Source: Frankiaceae bacterium (GTDB lineage: Bacteria; Actinomycetota; Actinomycetes; JAFAQI01). Taken from it: a DNA stretch of 36,360 nt. Both the position numbers and the translations under genes were made by a program. Position 1 is the first letter of the stretch. Each line of letters begins with the position of its first letter. Below are positions 17,851 through 34,927 of the stretch, piece after piece. The DNA is taken from the NCBI GenBank assembly GCA_025929365.1, contig JAICMG010000012.1, forward strand, positions 1-36,360, given 5' to 3'. The notes beneath the pieces are model-generated. The model had not been told where the DNA came from and did not search any database. It worked only from the letters and a program-made list of their open reading frames with translations.

Positions 17851-19398
17851 TCAGCCACTCCGATGGGCCGCCACGACCACGACGTCGTCCGACGGCTGAT
17901 GACCTCGCGCATACTCGGCGAGCACGGCGACCAGCTCCTCCGGGCTGCCGCGGCTGGCCCCGGAGACGAGCTTCGCGATCACCTGGTAGGCATCGTCAGG
18001 ATCGGCGTGCGGGTCCAGCAGGCCGTCACTGAACATCACGAGCGTCGCGCCCGGCTCCAGCTGGACATGGCCGACCGCGCCGCGCGGACCCGGTGCCCCG
18101 ATCGGGGGGTCCACCAGGACGTCGACGACCTCGACCTCGCCACTGGCCCGGTGCACGATCGGCGGCGGATGACCCGCGGCCGTGACATGCACCGACCCGC
18201 TACCCAGGTCCACGCGCGCAAGTGCCATCGTGACGAGCCGCTCGCTGTCGAGGCTGTCGTGGAAGTCTCGCAGCTCGTCGATGGCTGCCTCGACGCGTTC
18301 GTGCCGGCTACATGCCGCTCGCACCAAGGTGGAGTAACGCGCCATCAGCGCCGCAGCGTGCCCGTCGTGCCCTTCGACGTCGCCGACGATGACATCGACG
18401 ACATCACCCGCGACATCGTCGACCGAGTGCGGCACCACGTCGTACCAGTCGCCGCCGACCTCGGCGGTCTCCAGCGCTGGGTGGTAGGTCGTGGCGAACC
18501 GTACGCCGGGGATCTCGGGTGGCGCCGGCGGGAGCAGACCGCGTTGCAGCCCCTCGCTGAGCGACCTCGTCGCGGCGGCCCGCGCGATAAGGACCCGGCT
18601 GCTCTCGCGCTCGGTGACGTCGCGCCACGTGACGAGCAGGGCGTCACCGAGCCGGCTGACGGCCAGGTCGTAGAGCAGCTCGCGACCGGTCGCGTCGGGA
18701 TAGGGAAAGGCGTTGAACTGCACGCCCTCACCGGTCTGCAGGACGCGCGCGTAGGTCGCGATGAAGTCGTCACCGAGCTCGGGGAACAGCTCACGCAGCG
18801 TCCGGCCGATCAGCTCGGCCCGCCCGCGGCCCGCGAAGTCGACGGACTTCTCGTTCGCGTAGCTGATCCGGAAGTCGACGACGTTGCCGGCGTCGTCGAG
18901 GACCGCTTGCTGCACGGTGACCGAGTCCAGCATCGCCTCCAGCGCGGCCGCGATCCGCTCCTCGGACTCCTGCCGCCCTCGCTGGGCCTCGAGCACCGGC
19001 CCGACGTCTCGGGAGATGATCATTCCCGCCACGATCTCGCCGCTGTCGTCGCGGACCGGCGCGACGGTCGAGCGCCAGAAGCCGGTCTCGTCGCGCAGTC
19101 CGATGTGGTCGAACACCCGTGTCTCGCCCGCCAGCGCGGCGCGCATGTGCTCCTCCAGCACCTCACCGCTGCCGTCGGAGAGGAGGTCGGTCGGGCGGTG
19201 TCCGACGATGTCGTCGAGGCGCCAGCCGAGCCGCTCGATCGCGATGCCGCCGACCAGGACGTGGCGCAGGTCGGTCCCGAAGACGAACACCGTGAGGTCG
19301 GGCGAGGAGGTCAGCAGCGCGCGGTAGACCGCGTCGTAGGCAAGCCCGGCCGGCTCGCCGCGCGGCGGCACAGGCCCAGCCGGACCGTCGACCGCCAT
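17851..19398 (-). CDS. PAS-PAS-SpoIIE (PP2C) phosphatase
   Basis: A 515-residue sensor phosphatase. Two PAS domains occupy about 20-125 (SSPDLTVFVFGTDLRHVLVGG; FWRSTVAPVRDDSGEIVAGMIISRDV) and about 140-260 (VVDFRISYANEKSVDFAGRGRAELIGRTLRELFP). The SpoIIE/PP2C domain covers about 285-512, with the metal residues in EVGGDWYDVV, VIVGDVEGHDGHAA, LVMFSDGLLDP and PSDDVVVVAA all kept. It should dephosphorylate an anti-sigma-factor antagonist in response to a PAS-sensed signal. ATG 19398 is chosen because GGGGAGGGG lies directly upstream; ATG 19422 and ATG 19443 are in frame. It is first in an operon with the ATPase and the unknown protein. Confidence 0.92.
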   Translation of the reverse strand: MAVDGPAGPVPPRGEPAGLAYDAVYRALLTSSPDLTVFVFGTDLRHVLVGGIAIERLGWRLDDIVGHRPTDLLSDGSGEVLEEHMRAALAGETRVFDHIGLRDETGFWRSTVAPVRDDSGEIVAGMIISRDVGPVLEAQRGRQESEERIAAALEAMLDSVTVQQAVLDDAGNVVDFRISYANEKSVDFAGRGRAELIGRTLRELFPELGDDFIATYARVLQTGEGVQFNAFPYPDATGRELLYDLAVSRLGDALLVTWRDVTERESSRVLIARAAATRSLSEGLQRGLLPPAPPEIPGVRFATTYHPALETAEVGGDWYDVVPHSVDDVAGDVVDVIVGDVEGHDGHAAALMARYSTLVRAACSRHERVEAAIDELRDFHDSLDSERLVTMALARVDLGSGSVHVTAAGHPPPIVHRASGEVEVVDVLVDPPIGAPGPRGAVGHVQLEPGATLVMFSDGLLDPHADPDDAYQVIAKLVSGASRGSPEELVAVLAEYARGHQPSDDVVVVAAHRSG

Positions 19399-19577
19399 CT
19401 CGCCCCTCCCCGTGCCCGGCATGTCCCCCGACGCCGAGGCCATGATCGCCCAAATCGGGCGTTTCGGGCCACCGAGCAACGTCGCGAGGCTCAGAACGCG
19501 GCGATCGTTGAGCGTGTGACGGCAGCCGCCATGGTGAAGATCGCTTCTGGGCCGTAACCTCGACGCATGGAGTCGAA

Positions 19578-19751
19578 GTGAAGAAGGTCGAGGTCGAGCG
19601 CGACGGCAAGTGGTTCGCCGGCACGATGGGCTTGTGGCGCGAGGACCCGCAAAAAGGCTGGGTCGCGACCGTGCGCTACTCGACCGGCTCGCGCGCGTAC
19701 ATGGAGACGATTCCCGCGGACCGGCTCCGCGAGCTCCCCGACAACCAGTAG
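19578..19751 (+). CDS. Small 57-residue conserved-type protein
   Basis: The frame from GTG 19578 to TAG 19751 encodes 57 residues: it begins VKKVEVERDGKWFAG, has a GLWREDPQKGWVATVRYSTG centre, and ends PADRLRELPDNQ. It resembles the small actinobacterial proteins with a V-x-V-x-x-x-G-x-W-x-x-G-x-L-x-x-W-R pattern that make a short beta-barrel-like fold; no function is known. Codon third positions are GC-rich as in its neighbours, which supports coding. It is preceded by an ATG-TGA minicistron (19567) and no strong ribosome site. It is divergent from the SpoIIE operon and lies upstream of the cold-shock gene. Confidence 0.6.
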   Translation: MKKVEVERDGKWFAGTMGLWREDPQKGWVATVRYSTGSRAYMETIPADRLRELPDNQ

Positions 19752-19866
19752 CGGCAGACCTCAACCGGCGGCGCGCAGACTGCTCCGCCGCAGCCGTAGC
19801 CACGGCCGGTGATCGGTGTTACCGTCGTAGGTAGTTGCAGTTTGCATTTCTCGTTCGTTTTCTTTC

Positions 19867-20200: not shown

Positions 20201-20907
20201 TGAACGCCGCGTCGGCGCTGGACACGACCTGCCCGGCGCCGACGCGCGCACACCCGGTGTTACCCCCGGGTCCACAGCTGGCCACCGTGGTGCGACGGAT
20301 CGCGAAGACCCTGTCGGTCGCCACGCTCATTCCGACCGCGTTGTTCTACGTCGGTCTGGTCACCGTGAACCTCTGGGTGGCGCTGTCCGTCGCGCTGGCG
20401 TGGTGCTACACCGCCGCGGCCTGGCGGATCCGTACCAAGCAGCAGTCCTCGACGCTGCTGTGGTTGACCGTCGCGGGGCTGACCGGCAAGACGATCATCG
20501 CCTTCGCGACCGGCAGCACGCTCATCTACTTCCTGCAGCCCGCGCTCGCCGACACCGTCGTCGCCAGCGCGTTCCTGCTCTCACTCTTCACGGCGAGACC
20601 CGCGGTCGCGCGGATCGCCGCTGAGTTCTACCCGATGACCAGCGACATCGCCTCGCGGCCGGACATCCAGAAGCTGTTCGTCCGGCTCACCGTGCTGTGG
20701 GCCGCGATCTGCGCCACCCGCGCCGGTGTGACGCTCTGGCTGCTGCACACGCTGTCGACCACCGGCTTCATCACGGCCAAGACCGTGTACGGGCCCGGTA
20801 CTGCCGTGCTCGGTGCCACCCTGACGATTGCGCTCGCGGTACGGGTGGCGCGCCGCGAAGGCCTGCTGCCCGGCGCATCGCTCGCGCCGATCGGAGCCAC
20901 CGCATGA
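20200..20907 (+). CDS. VC0807/DUF3159-like membrane protein
   Basis: A 235-residue membrane protein with about five to six hydrophobic segments (LSVATLIPTALFYVGLVTVNLWVALSVALAWCYTAAAWRI; ALADTVVASAFLLSLFT; LTVLWAAICATRAGVTLWLLH; GTAVLGATLTIALAVRVARREG). The pattern of alternating hydrophobic helices with a central R-P-x-V-x-R segment (FTARPAVARIAAEFYP) resembles VC0807-family proteins. The function is unknown. Its ATG overlaps the cold-shock stop by one nt, and its stop overlaps the RbpA-type start (ATGA), so the three genes form one coupled unit. Confidence 0.7.
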   Translation: MNAASALDTTCPAPTRAHPVLPPGPQLATVVRRIAKTLSVATLIPTALFYVGLVTVNLWVALSVALAWCYTAAAWRIRTKQQSSTLLWLTVAGLTGKTIIAFATGSTLIYFLQPALADTVVASAFLLSLFTARPAVARIAAEFYPMTSDIASRPDIQKLFVRLTVLWAAICATRAGVTLWLLHTLSTTGFITAKTVYGPGTAVLGATLTIALAVRVARREGLLPGASLAPIGATA

Positions 20908-21272
20908 GACGCCGCTCCTCGATGCGCGGCAACCGGTTGACCTTGGCAAGCAACCAGGTTGACCGCGGGTCCCCCCCGGTCGCCCGCCGCGTCGTCGATT
21001 ACTGGTGTGCCGCCGACCACCGCTCCTCCCCCGCGTTCGCCACCGACATCGACGTCCCCGAGGAGTGGCCGTGCCGGGTGTGCGGCGCGCCGGCGGTGCT
21101 GCAACGCGGAGCGGCGCCGGCCGCGAGCCGGCAACGGATCTTCCCCCGCACGCCGTACGAGTTCCTCATGATGCGCCGTACCGTCGAGGACGGCGAGCGC
21201 GTCCTGGCCGAGGCGATCGCGGCGATGCACAAGGGTGACTACCCGCACCCAGGTGCCGGCCGTCGTCCCTGA
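20904..21272 (+). CDS. rbpA: RNA polymerase-binding protein RbpA family
   Basis: A 122-residue protein with the RbpA layout: an N-terminal MRGNRLTLAS (core-binding tail), the zinc knuckle DYWCAADH ... EEWPCRVCGAPAV with C35, H39, C57 and C60 at exactly the spacing of S. coelicolor RbpA, and a C-terminal RTPYEFLMMRRTVEDGERVLAEAIAAMHKG corresponding to the sigma-interacting helix. RbpA binds RNA polymerase and principal sigma factors and stabilises open complexes. ATG 20904 overlaps the previous stop; ATG 20922 would remove six residues. The cold-shock/membrane context suggests this could be a second, stress-linked copy. Sequence alone cannot say whether it is the only RbpA. Confidence 0.88.
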   Translation: MRRRSSMRGNRLTLASNQVDRGSPPVARRVVDYWCAADHRSSPAFATDIDVPEEWPCRVCGAPAVLQRGAAPAASRQRIFPRTPYEFLMMRRTVEDGERVLAEAIAAMHKGDYPHPGAGRRP

Positions 21273-21288
21273 CCGCCACGCGGTCAGG
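21268..21288. terminator. Bidirectional hairpin containing both stop codons
   Basis: CCTGACCGC (21268-21276), loop CAC, GCGGTCAGG (21280-21288): a perfect 9-bp stem with a 3-nt loop. The left arm contains the TGA of the RbpA-type gene (21270-21272) and the right arm the complement of the TGA of the convergent desaturase gene (21284-21286). Convergent placement indicates a shared terminator. There is no T-tract on either side, which is usual for high-GC actinobacterial terminators. Confidence 0.65.
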
Positions 21289-22324
21289 TCGTCGGCGCCA
21301 CTGATCTGAGGTAGCGCAGCACCTGCGCGTAGGAGGAGAACGCGCTCGTCTCGCGGTAGCTGATCGCGTGCTCCGCGCAGAACCTCTTCACGATGTGGCG
21401 GGCGCGGCGCAGGTTGCGGCTCGGCATGCTCGGGAACAGGTGGTGCTCGATCTGGTAGTTCAGGCCGCCGGATCCCGCCGCGAGCAGTCGACCGCCCCGG
21501 ACGTTGCGCGAGGTCAGGACCTGACGGCGCAGGAAGTCGGAGTAGGTGTCGCTCGACGCCATCGGCATGCCCTTGTGGTTGGGCGCGAAGCTCACGCCGA
21601 GATACAGGCCGAGCAGGCCCTGCTGCAGCGCGAGGAACGCCAGCGCGTGCAGCGGTGTCATGAGCCAGAACACGAGCAGTACGCCGCCGATCGCGTGCGC
21701 ACCGAGCAGGACCGTCTCGAGGAGGCGCCGCTCGTTGCGTGTGGGGAGCCGGCGGATGCTGTTGACCTGCAGGTTGAGCGCTTCGAGCAGCAGCAACGGG
21801 AAGAAGAAGATCGCCTGGTGGCGCGCGATCAGCCGGACGAGCCCGCGTTGCTGGTCGGCCTGCTCGGTGGTCCACGCCAGGACGCTGCGCCCGACATCGG
21901 GGTCGCGGTCGACGTCGTTGGGGTGCCAGTGATGGCGCTTGTGCTTGTCCACCCACCAGCCGTAGCTCATCCCGGCAACGCCGTTGGACACCAGCACGCC
22001 GAGCCGGTCGTTCCAGCGGCGGGTCCGGAAGATCTGCTGATGGCCGGCGTCGTGGGCCAGGAATCCGACCTGCGCGATCGCCGCCGCGAGGAACACCGCG
22101 GTCACCAGCTGCCACCACGAGTTGTGCAGCAGGAACAGCACCGTCAGCCCCACGGCCAGCATGCCGCCCACCGTCACCATGCGCGGCAGCGCGCGCAGCG
22201 CGGACCGGTCCAGCAGGCCGGCCGACTGCACGAGCCGGCGGAGGGCGGCGTAGTCGCCGGTTGCGCCGGATTCGCCCGCCGAAGCGGTCAGGTCGTCGGA
22301 CAGGAGGGTTGCGGGGGCGGTCAA
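21284..22324 (-). CDS. Membrane fatty acid desaturase
   Basis: A 346-residue integral membrane desaturase with the three histidine boxes that hold the di-iron centre: HDAGH (91-95), HKRHH (128-132) and QIEHH (291-295). Four or more hydrophobic segments surround them. The QIEHH form of box 3 is typical of acyl-lipid/front-end-type desaturases. It would introduce a double bond into membrane acyl chains, a common response to low temperature, which fits its convergence on the cold-shock/RbpA unit (inference). The start is TTG 22324, overlapping the previous stop (TTGA); no clear ribosome site is seen, so coupling is likely. Confidence 0.93.
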   Translation of the reverse strand: MTAPATLLSDDLTASAGESGATGDYAALRRLVQSAGLLDRSALRALPRMVTVGGMLAVGLTVLFLLHNSWWQLVTAVFLAAAIAQVGFLAHDAGHQQIFRTRRWNDRLGVLVSNGVAGMSYGWWVDKHKRHHWHPNDVDRDPDVGRSVLAWTTEQADQQRGLVRLIARHQAIFFFPLLLLEALNLQVNSIRRLPTRNERRLLETVLLGAHAIGGVLLVFWLMTPLHALAFLALQQGLLGLYLGVSFAPNHKGMPMASSDTYSDFLRRQVLTSRNVRGGRLLAAGSGGLNYQIEHHLFPSMPSRNLRRARHIVKRFCAEHAISYRETSAFSSYAQVLRYLRSVAPTT

Positions 22325-22695
22325 CGCGACACGCGTGACCGGGCCGACAGCGACCGGTCGAGGTAGAAGGAGGGAATGGCTCCGACGGCGCCACCGCGAA
22401 GCGTGCAGCCCTCGAGCCGTTCGGCCGCGGCCGCCGAGAGGAAGACCGTCGCACCGTGTCCGGTGACGACGATGTCGTCGGGACGACGGTCGGCCAGGCT
22501 CATCGACAGGCTGCGGTGCTGCGGGTGGATGACGATGCGCAGCCCGTCGCTGCTGGTCTCGCGGGCGCCGTCCTGCATCGAGCGGACCATGTCCGCGCCG
22601 TCCTCGGCGACCTTGAGCGGTCGTGCGGTGGGCGCGCCGACGTTCGGCCAGTCGCGTCCAGGGACCAGAAATCGAAGCTGCGACAACGTCGCCAA
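22321..22695 (-). CDS. HesB/IscA-like small protein without the cysteines
   Basis: A protein of up to 124 residues. The part from about residue 26 (LKVAEDGADMVRSMQ, GLRIVIHP, SLSMSLADRRPDDIVVTGHGATVFLSAAAAERLEGCTLRG) follows the pattern of short actinobacterial HesB-like proteins that have the A-type carrier fold. The C-terminal GCGC-type cysteines of true Fe-S carriers are absent; one Cys remains in EGCTLRG. An iron-sulfur role is therefore doubtful. The start is TTG 22695 or TTG 22686; ATG 22590 would cut into the fold. It is coupled to the desaturase by a TTGA overlap. Confidence 0.6.
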   Translation of the reverse strand: MATLSQLRFLVPGRDWPNVGAPTARPLKVAEDGADMVRSMQDGARETSSDGLRIVIHPQHRSLSMSLADRRPDDIVVTGHGATVFLSAAAAERLEGCTLRGGAVGAIPSFYLDRSLSARSRVSR

Positions 22696-28619: not shown

Positions 28620-30824
28620 TCAACGAGCGGCGAGGGCGTCCGTCAACAGACTGACCAGAGTCTCGAGACGGACGTCCACGTCGGTCACCTCGACGTCCTC
28701 GGCGTCCAGCGCGCGCGCCGCGAGGCTCGCCTTCGTCCCGATCAGATCCGCGACCCGCGCGTCGACCGTCTGCGCGGCGATGATTCGCCACGCCGTGACC
28801 GGCTGGTCCTGACCGATGCGGTGCACGCGGTCGATCGCCTGCGTCTGCTCCGCCGCCGTCCACGACAGCTCGGCGAGCACGACGTTGGACGACACCTGCA
28901 GGTTGATGCCGACACCGGCGGCGGTCAGCGAGCACACGATGATCTGCACGTCGGGGTCGTTGACGAAGGCGTCGATGTTCTTCGTCCGCACCTTGGTCGT
29001 CTGGTTGCCGCGGATCGAGGAGTAGCCGATCCCGCGCTTGGAGAACAGCGCCTCGGCTGCGTCCATCACGTCGATGTGCTTGGCGAAGAACACGACCTTG
29101 CCGGCGTTGCGCGACAGCTGCGCGGCGTAGTCGGCGGCGAGCTCGGCCTTCGCCTGCCCGATCCGCCGCATCATCGCGAAGACGTTCTCGCCGGAACCGT
29201 CGTCGTTCTCGTCGGCGTTGCGCAGCTCCCGCGCACACACCTGCCGGACGACGGCCGCATCGACGCCGACGACCGAGTCGCCGTCCTTGCGCGCCTTGAT
29301 CGCGCTGTCGTAGCGCTTGACCAGTCGCGCGACCAGCTTCTTCTCCGCCGCCCGCACCGAGGTGCCGGCGGCCCCTTCGAGCTCCACCGGTACGTCGGCG
29401 ATCCGCCGCGCCGGGATGTCCTTGGCGACGTCGACCTTGCGCCGGCGTACGACTCCCATCTCGATGACGCTGTCGCGCGCCAGCGGGTAGAAGCCCGGGT
29501 CGACCGGCGTCGTCCCGTTGGCCTCGAGCGCGTGCAGCAGGTCGGGCTCGACCTCGCCACCGGAGATCCAGCCGAGGAACTCCCAGATCGCGAGGAAGTC
29601 CTCGATGTCGTTGATCAGCGGCGTCCCGGTCAGCGCCATCAGCAGCGGCCGCGGCGTGCGCTCGCGAACCTTGCGCGACAGCTCGAGCACGTTCTTCGAC
29701 CGCTGCGCGGTCTTGTTCTTGATGAAGTGCGCCTCGTCGACGACCATCCCGCGGAAGCCGAACCGGCCCAGCCACCCGACGTGGCGGCTGAGGATGTCGT
29801 AGTTGACGACCACGATGTCGCTGAACGCGTCGACCGTCTCGCCGTCGCCGTGGATCACCGTCGCCGCGTGCTCCGGCGTCCACATCGCGGCTTCCCGCGC
29901 CCAGCTGGTCTTCACGACGTTCGGTACGACGACCAGCAGGGGAAAGGCATCCGCCGCCTTCGCGGCCAGCAACGCCTCGGCGGTCTTGCCCAGACCCGGC
30001 TCGTCGGCGAGCAGGAACGTGCGGTGCCCTTCCTTCGCCTTCTCGATCACCTGCGCCTGGTGGGGCATCAGCTCCAGCCCGGGCGCGATGTGCAGATGGC
30101 TCGGCGGCGGCAGCGTCATGCACGACCGGGCATCGACGCCTGCCTGCTCGAAGGAGCGAAGCAGCGGCTTGATCAGCTCCCAGTCGATGAGCAGCCGCGG
30201 CTTCGGCTTCGGCGGCGCAGCGGCCGAGAAGTCCGGGGCGAGGAACGGGTTGACGAGGCTGCGCTGCACCGCGGACTGCGGGATCACCTGACGCTCGCGT
30301 TCGGCAACCGACGGCGGCGGCGGCGGCGCCTCCGGCTCCGGCGCGACCGCGAGACCGGCCTTCGAGCGCAGAACCCGCATCGCGTCAGCGGTGCCGGGCA
30401 GCATCGGGGCGCCCTCGGCGAGCAGCTCGAACAACGACCCGTCGCGCGCCGCGACCCGGGCGAGGCTCGCGGCGAGCCCCTCCACCCTCTTCTGCATCGC
30501 CCCACGCGCTGCCGGGCTCATCGGTGCCGTCGTCGCCTCGACCCGCTGCTCGCGCAGCAGCAACGCGGCCGCCTGGAACTCCGCCCGCATCGACGGGGTC
30601 ACCCGCGCCCGGCCGAGGTTGGCCAGCGAGATCGCGAGTACGGCGAGCGGTCCCTGCTCCTGCAGCCGTGGCGCGGCGCTTTGCCGTTGCGGCTGCGAAC
30701 GGCGCCGCCCCTCGCCGCGCTGTTGCGCCGGCTGCCGCTGCTGCTGCTGGCGCGGCGCGGGCGCGTTTTCCTCGCGCGGCACCGGCACACCACTACGGGT
30801 GCGACGGCGAGACCGTGGCGGCAA
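28620..30824 (-). CDS. SNF2-family DEAD/DEAH helicase-like ATPase
   Basis: A 734-residue protein. The first 60 residues are Arg/Gln/Pro-rich low complexity, then a helical domain of about 60-150 and a Pro-rich linker (165-210). The SNF2 motor starts near 245 (LELMPHQAQVI): motif I ADEPGLGKT (273-281), motif II DEAH (363-366), motif III ALTGTPLIND, then in lobe 2 KVVFFAKH, IIVCSLTAAGVGINLQ, and motif VI QAIDRVHRIGQDQPV. The compact layout resembles stand-alone SMARCAL1-like bacterial SNF2 proteins. There is no fused SWIM or nuclease domain. The start is TTG 30824, with GAGGAG eight nt upstream. No restriction or phage-defence partner is adjacent. Confidence 0.92.
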   Translation of the reverse strand: MPPRSRRRTRSGVPVPREENAPAPRQQQQRQPAQQRGEGRRRSQPQRQSAAPRLQEQGPLAVLAISLANLGRARVTPSMRAEFQAAALLLREQRVEATTAPMSPAARGAMQKRVEGLAASLARVAARDGSLFELLAEGAPMLPGTADAMRVLRSKAGLAVAPEPEAPPPPPSVAERERQVIPQSAVQRSLVNPFLAPDFSAAAPPKPKPRLLIDWELIKPLLRSFEQAGVDARSCMTLPPPSHLHIAPGLELMPHQAQVIEKAKEGHRTFLLADEPGLGKTAEALLAAKAADAFPLLVVVPNVVKTSWAREAAMWTPEHAATVIHGDGETVDAFSDIVVVNYDILSRHVGWLGRFGFRGMVVDEAHFIKNKTAQRSKNVLELSRKVRERTPRPLLMALTGTPLINDIEDFLAIWEFLGWISGGEVEPDLLHALEANGTTPVDPGFYPLARDSVIEMGVVRRRKVDVAKDIPARRIADVPVELEGAAGTSVRAAEKKLVARLVKRYDSAIKARKDGDSVVGVDAAVVRQVCARELRNADENDDGSGENVFAMMRRIGQAKAELAADYAAQLSRNAGKVVFFAKHIDVMDAAEALFSKRGIGYSSIRGNQTTKVRTKNIDAFVNDPDVQIIVCSLTAAGVGINLQVSSNVVLAELSWTAAEQTQAIDRVHRIGQDQPVTAWRIIAAQTVDARVADLIGTKASLAARALDAEDVEVTDVDVRLETLVSLLTDALAAR

Positions 30825-31072
30825 TCGCTCTCCTCGGTTGACCGGAAACCCGAGCGGTTGCCGGTCAGACGATGCATCGAAGCGCTGACCCGGCCGGCTC
30901 CACAGAAAAGCCGAACAGCAAGTCGCGTGCTTGCGCTCCGTCGATCGTACAAGCCGATCGCCCGAAGCGGTGGGACCCGGCCCAGCGCGTCAATGACGAC
31001 ATCTAGCCATCTATTCGGGCGCGGACCAGCCGATTGCCCCATCAACGGAGTTCGCTGAGCGAGGGGTCCATC

Positions 31073-32428
31073 GTGCGCATCCGCCCAACCGTCACATCCG
31101 GCATGTCCATCGCCGTCACCGCAGCGCTGGCCGTTGCCACCTCGGCGACGCTGTCGGCCGCAGCCGCGCCGCAGAGGTCAACGGCGCTGACGCACCCCGT
31201 CGCGGCCTTGACGCTGTCCACAGCCAAGCCCGCGGTCGGCGCGAAGGTCGTCGCCACCGTCAACCACAGCCGGCTGCCCAAGGGCGACCGGTTGCGCAAG
31301 GTGACGATCCGGTTCGGCGACCGGACCAAGGCCGTCGTCCTGCACAGCCTGAAGGGCCGTGCCCGTCACAGCTACACCAAGCCCGGGACCTTCGTCGTCG
31401 TCGTGACGGTCGTCGACCGGCACGGCAAGAAGGCCAGGAAGTCCAAGCACGTCGTCGTCCACGCCGTCCACACCTCGCCGCCCCCGGCCCCGTCCGGACT
31501 TCCACTGAAGATCCCCGCCGGCCTGCCGGCAACGACGCCGATCTCCGCCCTCGGGCTGCCCACGACGACGCTGTCCCGTATCGCTTCGCTGGTCGGCATC
31601 CCGGCCGGCACGCTCAGCGGCCTGCCCGTCGGATTCCTCGGCATGCTCCCGGCCGCCGACCTCACGGGCGCCGCCTTGCCGAGCCTGCCGGGCCTCGCCG
31701 GACTGCCGCTGTCCGGCGACCTGGTCACCTTGCTGTCCGCCACCCTCGGCGGACTGCCCTTCTCGTTGCCGACGAACGCCGGCCTCACCCCCTTCCAGCT
31801 CATCGGCACGGTTCCCTCGACGGTGCTGTCCACCGTCCAGCTGACGTCGCTGTCGACGCTGTTCGGGGTCCCGACCTCCGTCCTGCCCAACCTTCCGCTG
31901 AGCGTGCTCGGCCTGCTGCCCGGCAACCTCGTGCAGTTCGTGACGCCCGGTACGCCCCCCGGCGGCGGCACCACACCGCCCCCACCGACGCCGGTGTTCC
32001 CGCTCAGCATCGCGGCCGGCCTGCTTCCCACCAGCCTCATCTCTTCACTCGGCCTGCCCTCGACGGCGCTGTCCACCGTGTCGTCCACGCTCACAATCCC
32101 GGCGGGCACGTTGAGCGGACTGCCGGTCGGATTCCTCCGGCTGCTTCCCGCCGGCGACCTCACCGGGAGCGCGTTGCCGAGCCTGCCCGGCCTGGCGAGC
32201 CTGCCGCTGCTCGGCAACACGATCGGCATGCTGCTCGCCGGGCTCCCGATCACCATCCCGTCCGGCGTCCTGCCGACCACGCTGATCTCGGCACTGCCGG
32301 CGGGGACGCTCTCGGTCCTGCAGCTCAGCACGCTGTCGACGTACTTCGGAATCCCGACGTCAGTGCTCAAGACCCTGCCGGTGAACGTGCTGACGCTGCT
32401 GCCGACCGGACTGCTCAACGGCCTGTGA
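31073..32428 (+). CDS. Secreted protein with PKD-like domain and two long Leu/Pro-rich repeats
   Basis: A 451-residue protein from GTG 31073 (GAGGGG upstream). Residues 1-35 look like a signal peptide (hydrophobic MSIAVTAALAVATSATLSA followed by AAAAP). Residues about 45-125 form a PKD/Ig-like beta domain (TIRFGDRTKAVVLHSLKG; TFVVVVTVVDRHGKK). Residues 144-289 and 310-451 are two copies of a Leu/Pro/Ser/Thr-rich unit, joined by a PGGGTTPPPPTP linker. There is no LPxTG or C-terminal membrane anchor. The function is unknown; an extracellular binding or matrix role is plausible. I know no named family for the repeat. Confidence 0.8.
   Translation: MRIRPTVTSGMSIAVTAALAVATSATLSAAAAPQRSTALTHPVAALTLSTAKPAVGAKVVATVNHSRLPKGDRLRKVTIRFGDRTKAVVLHSLKGRARHSYTKPGTFVVVVTVVDRHGKKARKSKHVVVHAVHTSPPPAPSGLPLKIPAGLPATTPISALGLPTTTLSRIASLVGIPAGTLSGLPVGFLGMLPAADLTGAALPSLPGLAGLPLSGDLVTLLSATLGGLPFSLPTNAGLTPFQLIGTVPSTVLSTVQLTSLSTLFGVPTSVLPNLPLSVLGLLPGNLVQFVTPGTPPGGGTTPPPPTPVFPLSIAAGLLPTSLISSLGLPSTALSTVSSTLTIPAGTLSGLPVGFLRLLPAGDLTGSALPSLPGLASLPLLGNTIGMLLAGLPITIPSGVLPTTLISALPAGTLSVLQLSTLSTYFGIPTSVLKTLPVNVLTLLPTGLLNGL
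31502..31939 (+). repeat. Leu/Pro-rich protein repeat, copy A
   Basis: Encodes residues 144-289 of the secreted protein. Landmarks shared with copy B: ISALGLP, IPAGTLSGLPVGFL, LPSLPGLAGLPL, STLFGVPTSVLPNLP and VLGLLPGNL. Within the copy, shorter S-x-L-x-G-[LI]-P units recur about every 20-25 residues. Confidence 0.75.
32000..32425 (+). repeat. Leu/Pro-rich protein repeat, copy B
   Basis: Encodes residues 310-451. It matches copy A in order: ISSLGLP, IPAGTLSGLPVGFL (identical 14 residues), LPSLPGLASLPL, STYFGIPTSVLKTLP and VLTLLPTGL. The copies diverge most in the middle, where copy A has extra residues, so the duplication is not recent. Confidence 0.75.
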
Positions 32429-32443
32429 CAGCAGTGGCCGCAC

Positions 32444-34927
32444 TCACTCCGTGGGCTGCGGTTGGTCGTCCACGCCGGCGTCGCAGGCCATTGCCATCGC
32501 CTCGGCGGTCGTCATCGTTCGGCCCGCGTTCGAGGCCGCTTCGTACGTCGCTGGAGCGAGCTGGTCGCGGGTGAGCGCTACTGCGTCGTCGTGCACCACG
32601 GCGAACCACCCCGGGTAGACCCAGCCGGCCTGCTCGTGCAGCGCCGCAGCGGCGCCCAGCACCCGGGCCGCAACCTCTCCGCGACCAGCGCGCGCAGCGA
32701 CTCGCGCGGTGCGCACCAGCACCATCTCGACGGCGCCGAGATCCCCGCTCGCGTCTGCGCTGCCGTGGGCTCGCCGCAACATGGCAATCGCGTCCCCGTG
32801 CCGTCCCTCGCCGCTGACGGCGTCCGCGAGAACGGAAAGTGAGTACCACTCATTCTCGAGATCGCCGATGGCGCCGGCCCTGGCAACGATCTCCTCGTGC
32901 AGCCGGCGGAAGGTGCCGGGGTCGCCGAGCTCGCTCGCCGCCCACGCCAGGATCCGCAGCGATTGCAGCTCCCGGTGCTCGTCGCCGAGCGCCCGCCATT
33001 GCTCCGCGAGGTTCTCCATGATGGCCTTCGCATCGGCGAACTCACCGCAGTGACCGTGGGCCAGCCCGAGCTCGTGCTCGGCGAAGGCCATCCGCCATGG
33101 ATCGGGGAAGGGTTGCTGCGCCGCGACGGCGCGCTGCGCCCGCTCGAGGAAGACGTGCGGCGCCGCACCGGCACCCGGCGCCAGGTGCGAAGCGCCGAGC
33201 GCGACCTTCGCGCGCGCATCGCCGGGCTCGCCGTCCACCCTCAGCAGCTGCTCGAGCCGAAGCGATCCCTCGACGTGATGGCCGCGCAAGCACCAGAACT
33301 CCCACAGCGCGCCCCCCAAGCGCATCGCGTCGTCGGTGTCACCGCCACCTTCCAACCGGTCGAGGGCGACCCGGAGGTTGTCGTGATCGGCCTCGAGCCG
33401 GTCCAACGCCACCACCGGATGCAGGCCGAGCACGTCGGGTTCGAGCGACTCCGCGAGGGCGAGGAAGTACGCGGCGTGGGCCCGTTGGTAGGTCTCGGCG
33501 TCGCCCGACGCCGCGAGCCGCTCCGAGGCGAAGTCGCGAATGGTCTCGAGCATCGTGAACCGGCCGTCGACCACGCGGACGAGGCTCTTGTCGACCAGCG
33601 CCTCGAGCACGTCGAGGTCGGCGTCGATGACCTCGGCCGCGTCCTGCAGCGTGACCCCTCCCGCGAACACCGCCATCCGCTCGAACAGCACGCGTTCCGG
33701 CTCGTCGAGCAGGTCGTAGGACCACGCGATGGTGGCGCGCAGCGTCTGCTGCCGCGCGTCGGCGTCGCGCCCGCCCTTCAACAAGTCGAGCCGCTGACCG
33801 AGACGACTGAGGATCTGCGCCGGCGGCAGCACGCGGGCTCGCGCCGCGGCCAGCTCGATCGCCAGCGGGAGGTCGTCGAGCGCGCGGCACAGCGCCGCGA
33901 CCTCGTCGCCGGCCGCGAGCCCGGAGCGGGCGCAGAACAGCTGCACGGCGTCCGCGTTCGCCAGCGGTGGGACGGCGTACTCGGCCTCGCCGCGCACCCG
34001 CAGTCGCTCTCGCGACGTGACCAGGACGGCGAGACTGGGGCAGCGTTCGACGAGCCGTGCAATGTCTCTGGCGGCGCCGATGACCTGCTCCAGGTTGTCG
34101 ATCGCGAGCAACATGTCGCGTTCGCCGATGTGCGTCTCGAGGTCGCCGGAGCCACCGATCGCCTGCCCGATGGTGGGCAGGACGAGGTCCGGCGATCGCA
34201 GCGCGGCAAGCTCGATCCAGAACACCCCCGCCTTGCGTGATCCGACGAACTCCGCAGCCGCTTCCAGCGCCAACCGCGTCTTGCCGGATCCGCCGGGTCC
34301 GGTCAGCGTGACGAGCCGGTCGCCGCCACGCAGCAGCCGCACGACGTCTTCGAGCTCCCGCTGACGACCGACGAACTGGCTGGTCGGCCGAGGGAGGTTC
34401 GTGTTGGCCACGGTGCGAAGCGGCGGGAACCGGCCGTCGCCGAGCTGGTAGATCGAGATCGGCTGGTCGAAGTCCTTGAGCCGGTGCTCACCCAGCTCGA
34501 CCACCGCCGCCTCGATGGACGCTCGCGTCCGCTCGGAGAGCAACACCTGGCCGCCGTGGCCCGCGGCGCACAGCCGCGCCCCAAGGTGCACGTCGGCACC
34601 GACGTAACCCTCATCGGTGAGCTGCGGCTCACCGGTGTGCAATCCCATCCGCACCCGGATCCGGCCGGAGCTCAACGCTTCCTGCGCCGCTGCTGCCGCC
34701 GCCACCGCGTCCTCCGCGGTCGGGAATGCGACGAAGAACGCGTCACCCTGGGTGTCGACCTCGACGCCGCTGTGCGCGGTGACCGCCGCCCTGATGTGGC
34801 TGCGGTGCTCGGCGAGCTGGTCGGCGTAGCCCTGTTGTCCGAGCTCGTGCAACAGCGCGGTCGACCCCTCGATGTCGGTGAACATCAGTGTCACCGTCCC
34901 GGCGGGCAGCTCCGGTCGCATGTCCAT
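32444..34927 (-). CDS. Class III cyclase-STAND ATPase-TPR signalling protein
   Basis: An 827-residue protein. Residues about 8-165 are a class III nucleotide cyclase domain with both metal aspartates, D18 (FTDIEGST) and D62 (TQGDAFF). The substrate-specifying Lys before GD is Asp58, and the catalytic Asn of the VNxAAR block is His (DVHLGARL), so activity is uncertain. Residues about 185-440 are an NB-ARC/STAND ATPase: Walker A LTGPGGSGKTRLALEA, Walker B MLLAIDNLEQV, LVTSRERL and DLPLAIELAAARA. Residues about 480-800 are TPR-like helices. No LuxR HTH is present. ATG 34927 or ATG 34921 is the start. The ligand and output are unknown. Confidence 0.9.
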   Translation of the reverse strand: MDMRPELPAGTVTLMFTDIEGSTALLHELGQQGYADQLAEHRSHIRAAVTAHSGVEVDTQGDAFFVAFPTAEDAVAAAAAAQEALSSGRIRVRMGLHTGEPQLTDEGYVGADVHLGARLCAAGHGGQVLLSERTRASIEAAVVELGEHRLKDFDQPISIYQLGDGRFPPLRTVANTNLPRPTSQFVGRQRELEDVVRLLRGGDRLVTLTGPGGSGKTRLALEAAAEFVGSRKAGVFWIELAALRSPDLVLPTIGQAIGGSGDLETHIGERDMLLAIDNLEQVIGAARDIARLVERCPSLAVLVTSRERLRVRGEAEYAVPPLANADAVQLFCARSGLAAGDEVAALCRALDDLPLAIELAAARARVLPPAQILSRLGQRLDLLKGGRDADARQQTLRATIAWSYDLLDEPERVLFERMAVFAGGVTLQDAAEVIDADLDVLEALVDKSLVRVVDGRFTMLETIRDFASERLAASGDAETYQRAHAAYFLALAESLEPDVLGLHPVVALDRLEADHDNLRVALDRLEGGGDTDDAMRLGGALWEFWCLRGHHVEGSLRLEQLLRVDGEPGDARAKVALGASHLAPGAGAAPHVFLERAQRAVAAQQPFPDPWRMAFAEHELGLAHGHCGEFADAKAIMENLAEQWRALGDEHRELQSLRILAWAASELGDPGTFRRLHEEIVARAGAIGDLENEWYSLSVLADAVSGEGRHGDAIAMLRRAHGSADASGDLGAVEMVLVRTARVAARAGRGEVAARVLGAAAALHEQAGWVYPGWFAVVHDDAVALTRDQLAPATYEAASNAGRTMTTAEAMAMACDAGVDDQPQPTE

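Follow-up and report, generated by a model that had tools for sequence, protein, structure and literature searches.

A gene on the forward strand of the 36,360-nucleotide stretch of DNA analysed here (the window) was described in an earlier note as coding for a secreted protein that carries a duplicated, leucine- and proline-rich fold of no recognised family. The locus raises the question of whether a real and maintained protein stands behind this frame, how its repeat is built, and what an apparently exported protein of such composition might do.

Coding status and surroundings of the gene

The reading frame lies where it had been reported, running on the + strand from a GTG at 31073 to a TGA ending at 32428 (31073..32428) and encoding 451 amino acids. 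We know of three copies of the gene, one in the window and two in G001, the only further genome of this genus covered by the search. An alternative start codon, a TTG, is found 39 nt upstream of the GTG; the GTG is supported by its context, CAnCGTGCG, which is common to all three copies. By the Nei-Gojobori method, dN/dS was 0.28–0.46 in six between-genome comparisons, which indicates a maintained protein, and 0.33 and 0.56 between units within one protein; as judged from these ratios, selection on the gene is purifying. That the frame is spurious, a product of GC-rich DNA with no real protein behind it, is extremely improbable: the window is indeed rich in long overlapping ORFs, including one of 348 residues antisense to this gene, but the protein has homologs at 65 and 71% identity and a PKD match, and dN/dS stayed below 0.6 in 8/8 comparisons.

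The N terminus, aa 1 to ~32 (31073..31168, + strand), has by eye a basic start, a hydrophobic core and an AAAA stretch ahead of the mature part, and we agree with the earlier prediction of a signal peptide for export. The following segment (aa 33-141), rich in Lys and Arg, has a net charge of +18, compared with +13 and +18 in the two relatives. Inside it sits a PKD_4-like domain (aa 41-125; 31193..31447, + strand). The PKD_4 model (PF18911) scored 26.4 bits in the window copy, 0.6 under the Pfam cut-off of 27, whereas the relatives, at 42.6 and 39 bits, both exceeded it, so that the gathering score is reached by the protein family and is borderline for the window copy. Because the corresponding region of the relatives scores this well, we accept the PKD-like domain that had been proposed for the window copy. 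Other rows over the PKD part were weak, namely the NCBIfam model PamR at E 0.006 (15.5 bits against a cut-off of 300) and one PHROG at E 0.12.

Upstream of the gene, a 19-nt block, AATGNCNNNANNTAGCCAT (30992..31010, + strand), was the most conserved 19-column stretch of the three-way alignment, with 13/19 columns invariant, and its ATG precedes the start codon of the three copies by 80, 80 and 81 nt. Allowing for at most one mismatch, we found no further occurrence of the block in either genome, compared with one match for the reversed control pattern. Each copy has a short ORF that starts with the block, M[TA][TR]SSH..., with lengths of 21, 48 and 14 residues, the one in the window (30992-31058) having 21 residues and starting MTTSSH; the fourth codon, for Ser, is TCT in one copy and AGT in two. 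The block may be a regulatory site, or it may open a short reading frame ahead of the gene; three related copies are too few to separate an operator from a leader peptide. A degenerate pattern, M[TA]R.SH, gave 21 matches in 40 genomes (the two G001 copies included) compared with 23 for its reversed control. No NCBIfam family matched the upstream peptide, Rfam gave no match in the window at gathering scores, and no promoter or terminator consensus was found in 30700-32700.

Both nearest neighbors of the gene lie on the - strand. On one side is an SNF2-type helicase (28620-30824, - strand, by Pfam) that is 83% identical in G001; named genomes hold at least 125 stretches related to it, of which 80 were kept, and its best named matches, among those listed, are MAGs labelled Frankiaceae or Frankiales at 74-76% identity, which suggests an actinomycete close to these groups as the host. 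On the other side is a protein with an adenylate/guanylate cyclase catalytic domain and a STAND-type ATPase (32444-34927, - strand, by Pfam; a TPR stretch scored below cut-off), which resembles a signalling protein. The G001 paralog with two units is found near a SecD/SecF gene, and the one with three units adjoins an alpha/beta hydrolase. Of seven window genes compared with three stretches of G001, two had a match, the helicase and the repeat protein, and these lay on different stretches; the nearest genes differ between copies, and no functional partner gene emerged. Elsewhere in the window, a SpoIIE-type phosphatase with PAS domains lies at 17851-19803 (- strand), and 20628-22454 (- strand) is spanned by a 608-residue ORF, perhaps a true frame, that nothing in Pfam matched at E 1e-4.

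Architecture and composition of the repeat

Two units of roughly 145 residues, as had been claimed, make up the C-terminal region: unit 1, of internal type (aa 142-288; 31496..31936), and unit 2, of terminal type (aa 308-451; 31994..32425), both on the + strand, as are all parts of the array given below. They are 59% identical, and their local alignment score of 393 compares with a mean of 75.8 (sd 11.1, max 119) for composition shuffles (n=1000). The DNA shows the duplication too, with 78% identity over 144 nt between stretches 498 nt apart. Both units end in SVLxxLPxxVLxLLP, which bears out the earlier remark that they end alike, and a Pro/Gly/Thr linker that differs in the relatives (aa 289-307; 31937..31993) joins them.

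The 145-residue block does repeat, but it is not the sole unit. Each unit is itself an internal duplication, unnoticed by the earlier reader, consisting of a half-unit A, a conserved LPSLPGL spacer and a half-unit B. Unit 1 is made up of half-unit A1 (57 aa; 31496..31666), a spacer of the form GxxLPSLPGLxxLP... (28 aa; 31667..31750) and half-unit B1 (62 aa; 31751..31936). Unit 2 comprises half-unit A2 (57 aa; 31994..32164), its conserved spacer (25 aa; 32165..32239) and half-unit B2 (62 aa; 32240..32425), which forms the C terminus of the protein. Six comparisons of A with B gave Z values of 7.0-12.0 against composition shuffles, with the observed score reached by 0/1000 shuffles in each. When blocks of 8 residues were shuffled whole, which preserves the local rhythm, the observed score was reached by 1, 1, 0 and 1 of 1000 shuffles in four comparisons.

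Within the half-units of 57-62 residues runs an 8-residue rhythm. What had been described as S-x-L-x-G-[LI]-P corresponds to this period of 8, built of PxxxLxxL steps. Pro pairs at spacing 8 numbered 15 against 5.7 expected, and the pattern P...L..[LA] occurred 13 times against 3.1, neither count being reached in 2000 shuffles; P..[VILFA][LVIF]..[LPA] was found 10 times against 3.0 (reached by 1/2000), and autocorrelation at lag 8 was 0.21 for Leu and 0.25 for Pro. Averaged whole-unit hydropathy had no periodicity over shuffles (peak 23.4 against a 95th percentile of 36.2). The rhythm therefore resides in the placement of Leu and Pro, and periodicity in the sequence does not decide between helix and strand. 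As read from the alignments, the architecture has four levels: the 8-residue step, the half-unit, the unit and the array.

The array is rich in Leu, Pro, Thr, Gly and Ser and almost charge-free. Its 310 residues include 7 that are charged and no Glu, His or Cys, and the repeats of the relatives have 10 charged residues in 296 and 19 in 455. Across the seven units of the three copies, Leu, Pro and Gly are conserved by position, and the linkers between units are more variable than the units themselves. A single Asp is the only charged residue that is invariant in all seven, which argues against an enzymatic role.

Unit number across the three copies is 2, 2 and 3. The internal unit of the window and those of G001 are 69-74% identical, compared with 59% between this unit and the window's own terminal unit, and terminal-type units are likewise closest to each other (69 and 80% between the window and G001). 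Because unit types match best across genomes, the two-unit plan is older than the divergence of the two genomes; by the same comparison, what the three-unit G001 paralog has in addition is one more unit of internal type.

Known families, fold and distribution

The claim that no known repeat family fits holds in the Pfam, NCBIfam, PHROGs and PDB libraries that we tried. With the whole protein as query, the C-terminal two thirds matched no Pfam model at E up to 1. Searched singly, the seven units gave a best E of 0.46 in Pfam (at E up to 10) and of 1.5 in NCBIfam, in each case for one member only, and no PHROGs model covered the repeat. The best PDB sequence match was to LRRC33, at E 0.48 with the single protein and 0.016 with a unit profile; it vanished with a half-unit profile, and we take it as common Leu-richness rather than kinship. 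No leucine-rich repeat appeared in the Pfam scans. Neither a sortase signal, an SLH or S-layer domain nor any other anchor was found in Pfam or NCBIfam at E up to 1, and by eye the C terminus, LLPTGLLNGL, has no basic tail. A literature search for repeats of this kind returned unrelated matches at most, and we claim absence from print only as far as that search extends.

AlphaFold modelled the whole protein alone at a mean pLDDT of 39.7, and unit 1, with unit 2 as its alignment, at 49.8; low values are expected for an orphan with one or two sequences in the alignment. In both low-confidence models the repeat has short helices, and strands of three residues or longer are absent from it. Each model has a helix of 7-11 residues directly ahead of G[IV]P in A1 and B1, followed by shorter helices; the whole-protein model has the same helix in B2 and not clearly in A2. 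We note this agreement, which is weak since both models come from one program, and do not rely on it. In a search of solved folds, neither model had a match below E 0.001, and all of the 19 chains compared stayed under a Z of 2. The solenoid or beta-helix suggested in the earlier note, which in its beta form would have strands in regular coils, is, with short helices at such pLDDT values and no PDB fold, not supported as stated. The note had proposed prediction of a single unit and named a disordered prediction as refuting; at such low confidence, disorder is neither clearly indicated nor excluded.

To see how far the repeat extends, we searched genomes at increasing distance. The window's own genome, an assembly 92.14% complete, yielded one copy. 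A search with the single protein in 40 relatives, own genome included, matched in 3/40; the match in G035, which covers the PKD part only, within an 883-aa ORF, was rejected as a relative. The order sample carries the repeat in 2/13 genomes. In the family, a full-length profile matched 7/12 genomes, and the five outside the genus were set aside as matches to profile positions 12-161 only, chiefly the PKD domain (two loci were opened). In the class sample, the unit profile A2 matched 7/393 genomes at E<=0.01, these being the genus pair and five weak matches. Four of the five were opened and rejected by eye, two of them falling within ORFs that resemble aldehyde dehydrogenases and the others within one that resembles a permease; the fifth, G357, was left unopened and has the same genus label and the same profile positions as the permease matches. 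The half-unit profile A6 matched 5/393 genomes of the class sample, namely the genus pair, two at the known permease places, and G270. The phylum sample gave matches in 3/396 genomes at E<=0.001, own genome included, and the two others were judged by eye to be chance.

Two strict peptide patterns gave 30 stretches in genome_contigs, none of them a relative; viral_contigs gave 28 stretches and again no relatives, and nothing in plasmids and phages matched the repeat protein. These scans of named collections, by strict patterns or tblastn, reach close relatives, and they may have excluded records from the same genome or a closely similar one. The 80 named helicase loci contained no match to the full-length profile at E<=1, and a single weak one, L080, to the unit profile, at E 0.016; as a positive control, both profiles recovered the two G001 copies when these were added to the loci. 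With the weak matches set aside, G357, G270 and L080 being the ones left unopened, no credible relative of the repeat was found outside the genus in 393 class, 396 phylum and 13 order genomes. The profile searches score part of the first-look candidates in most genomes (10/22 in one example from the class search), so a distant relative could escape. In the genomes searched, then, the repeat appears restricted to one genus, which describes the search and not nature.

Possible function and comparison with known systems

What might such a protein do? From its PKD domain, basic segment, charge-poor array, varying unit number and mode of selection, all read from sequence, we infer that the protein is secreted and has a structural role in the cell envelope or the extracellular matrix, with a basic PKD part for docking and a hydrophobic coat. 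This is the reading we favor, held tentatively and somewhat short of probable. The basic PKD part would hold the protein on anionic wall polymers or polysaccharide, a link suggested by its charge. The hydrophobic array of PxxxLxxL steps could then pack with itself or with neighboring molecules, and the packed array may form a water-repellent or adhesive coat, in which unit number would tune reach and avidity. Several observations point this way. The segment at aa 33-141 is strongly basic and its PKD_4 domain scores above cut-off in the relatives; unit number varies while the internal and terminal unit types are kept; and the almost charge-free units of the window have GRAVY values of 0.94 and 1.08, above the range of 0.163-0.600 given for short chaplins (PMC3079736).

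Against this reading count the Pfam and NCBIfam scans, in which no anchor domain turned up, and the differing neighbors of the three copies. Hydrophobicity of this strength would suit the binding of a hydrophobic ligand just as well, and PKD domains have many roles. Their frequency in extracellular binding proteins counts toward a second reading, less probable though still worth weighing, in which the PKD part and the array act as an adhesin, making no coat but binding one particular surface, sugar or hydrophobic material such as plant wax, mineral or chitin. The best PDB rows for the low-confidence whole-protein model were in fact the adhesin SiiE (E 0.16) and glycoside hydrolases, none of them near significance. 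An aromatic-rich face is lacking, however, with 9 aromatic residues among the 310 of the repeat, and the PKD domain is the only binding module that Pfam recognised.

The Leu-rich half-units might instead fold into helices around a hydrophobic cavity, in the manner of secreted lipid-binding proteins, making the protein a carrier or scavenger. High hydrophobicity and the short helices of both models would fit, but the models are of low confidence, no lipid-binding family matched in Pfam or NCBIfam, and the nearest genes differ from copy to copy (helicase and cyclase/STAND in the window, SecD/SecF or alpha/beta hydrolase in G001), and we think this unlikely. We give the same low standing to a disordered, elastomer- or spacer-like Pro-rich array that merely holds the PKD domain off the cell. 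A mean pLDDT below 50 in both runs, the high Pro and Gly content with a Pro-rich linker in the window copy, and a whole-unit hydropathy periodicity that does not rise over shuffles are what one could cite for it; the conservation of Leu, Pro and Gly at fixed positions in the seven units, like a GRAVY near 1, is atypical of disorder, and the linkers vary more than the units.

Returning to the structural coat, a bolder version of it, which we consider rather improbable, is that the repeat has a fold not seen before: short helical PxxxLxxL steps of 8 residues, arranged in A-B half-units, would wind into a solenoid with hardly any charge, and its self-assembly would give a hydrophobic surface coat of a non-amyloid kind, serving this lineage in place of chaplins.

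We regard the array as a genuine orphan repeat, on the strength of the library searches, within an ordinary secreted architecture. It adds a repeat family absent from all domain libraries searched, and its properties form an uncommon combination: strong hydrophobicity, near absence of charge and prolines eight residues apart, in a protein that nonetheless seems to be exported and evolves under purifying selection. For now, it offers a clearly bounded candidate for structure determination and not a mechanistic surprise.

Among known systems, extracellular proteins with PKD_4 (PF18911) share with the repeat protein its N-terminal domain; the C-terminal two thirds, by contrast, matched no Pfam model at the thresholds given above. 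Leucine-rich repeats resemble the array in having Leu at short regular spacing, here in LxxLP steps, but they follow an LxxLxLxxN period of 20-30 residues, whereas the period found here is 8. Sortase-anchored proteins carry LPXTG and a membrane tail, and S-layer surface proteins carry SLH domains. Pfam holds a chaplin model, which was not among the Pfam matches (searched to E 1 with the whole protein and to E 10 with the seven units), and the chaplins of Streptomyces are a functional analogue only. They too are secreted, very hydrophobic segments from an actinomycete with several gene copies, and they are described as part of the coat that renders Streptomyces aerial mycelium and spores hydrophobic, with a domain of ~40 hydrophobic residues that is predicted and measured as beta-rich (PMC3079736). 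Compared with that description, the repeat unit of the window has 57-62 or 145 residues rather than ~40 and no Cys, and its weak models lean to short helices rather than to beta structure. If the coat reading is true, the protein would represent a different route to a hydrophobic bacterial surface.
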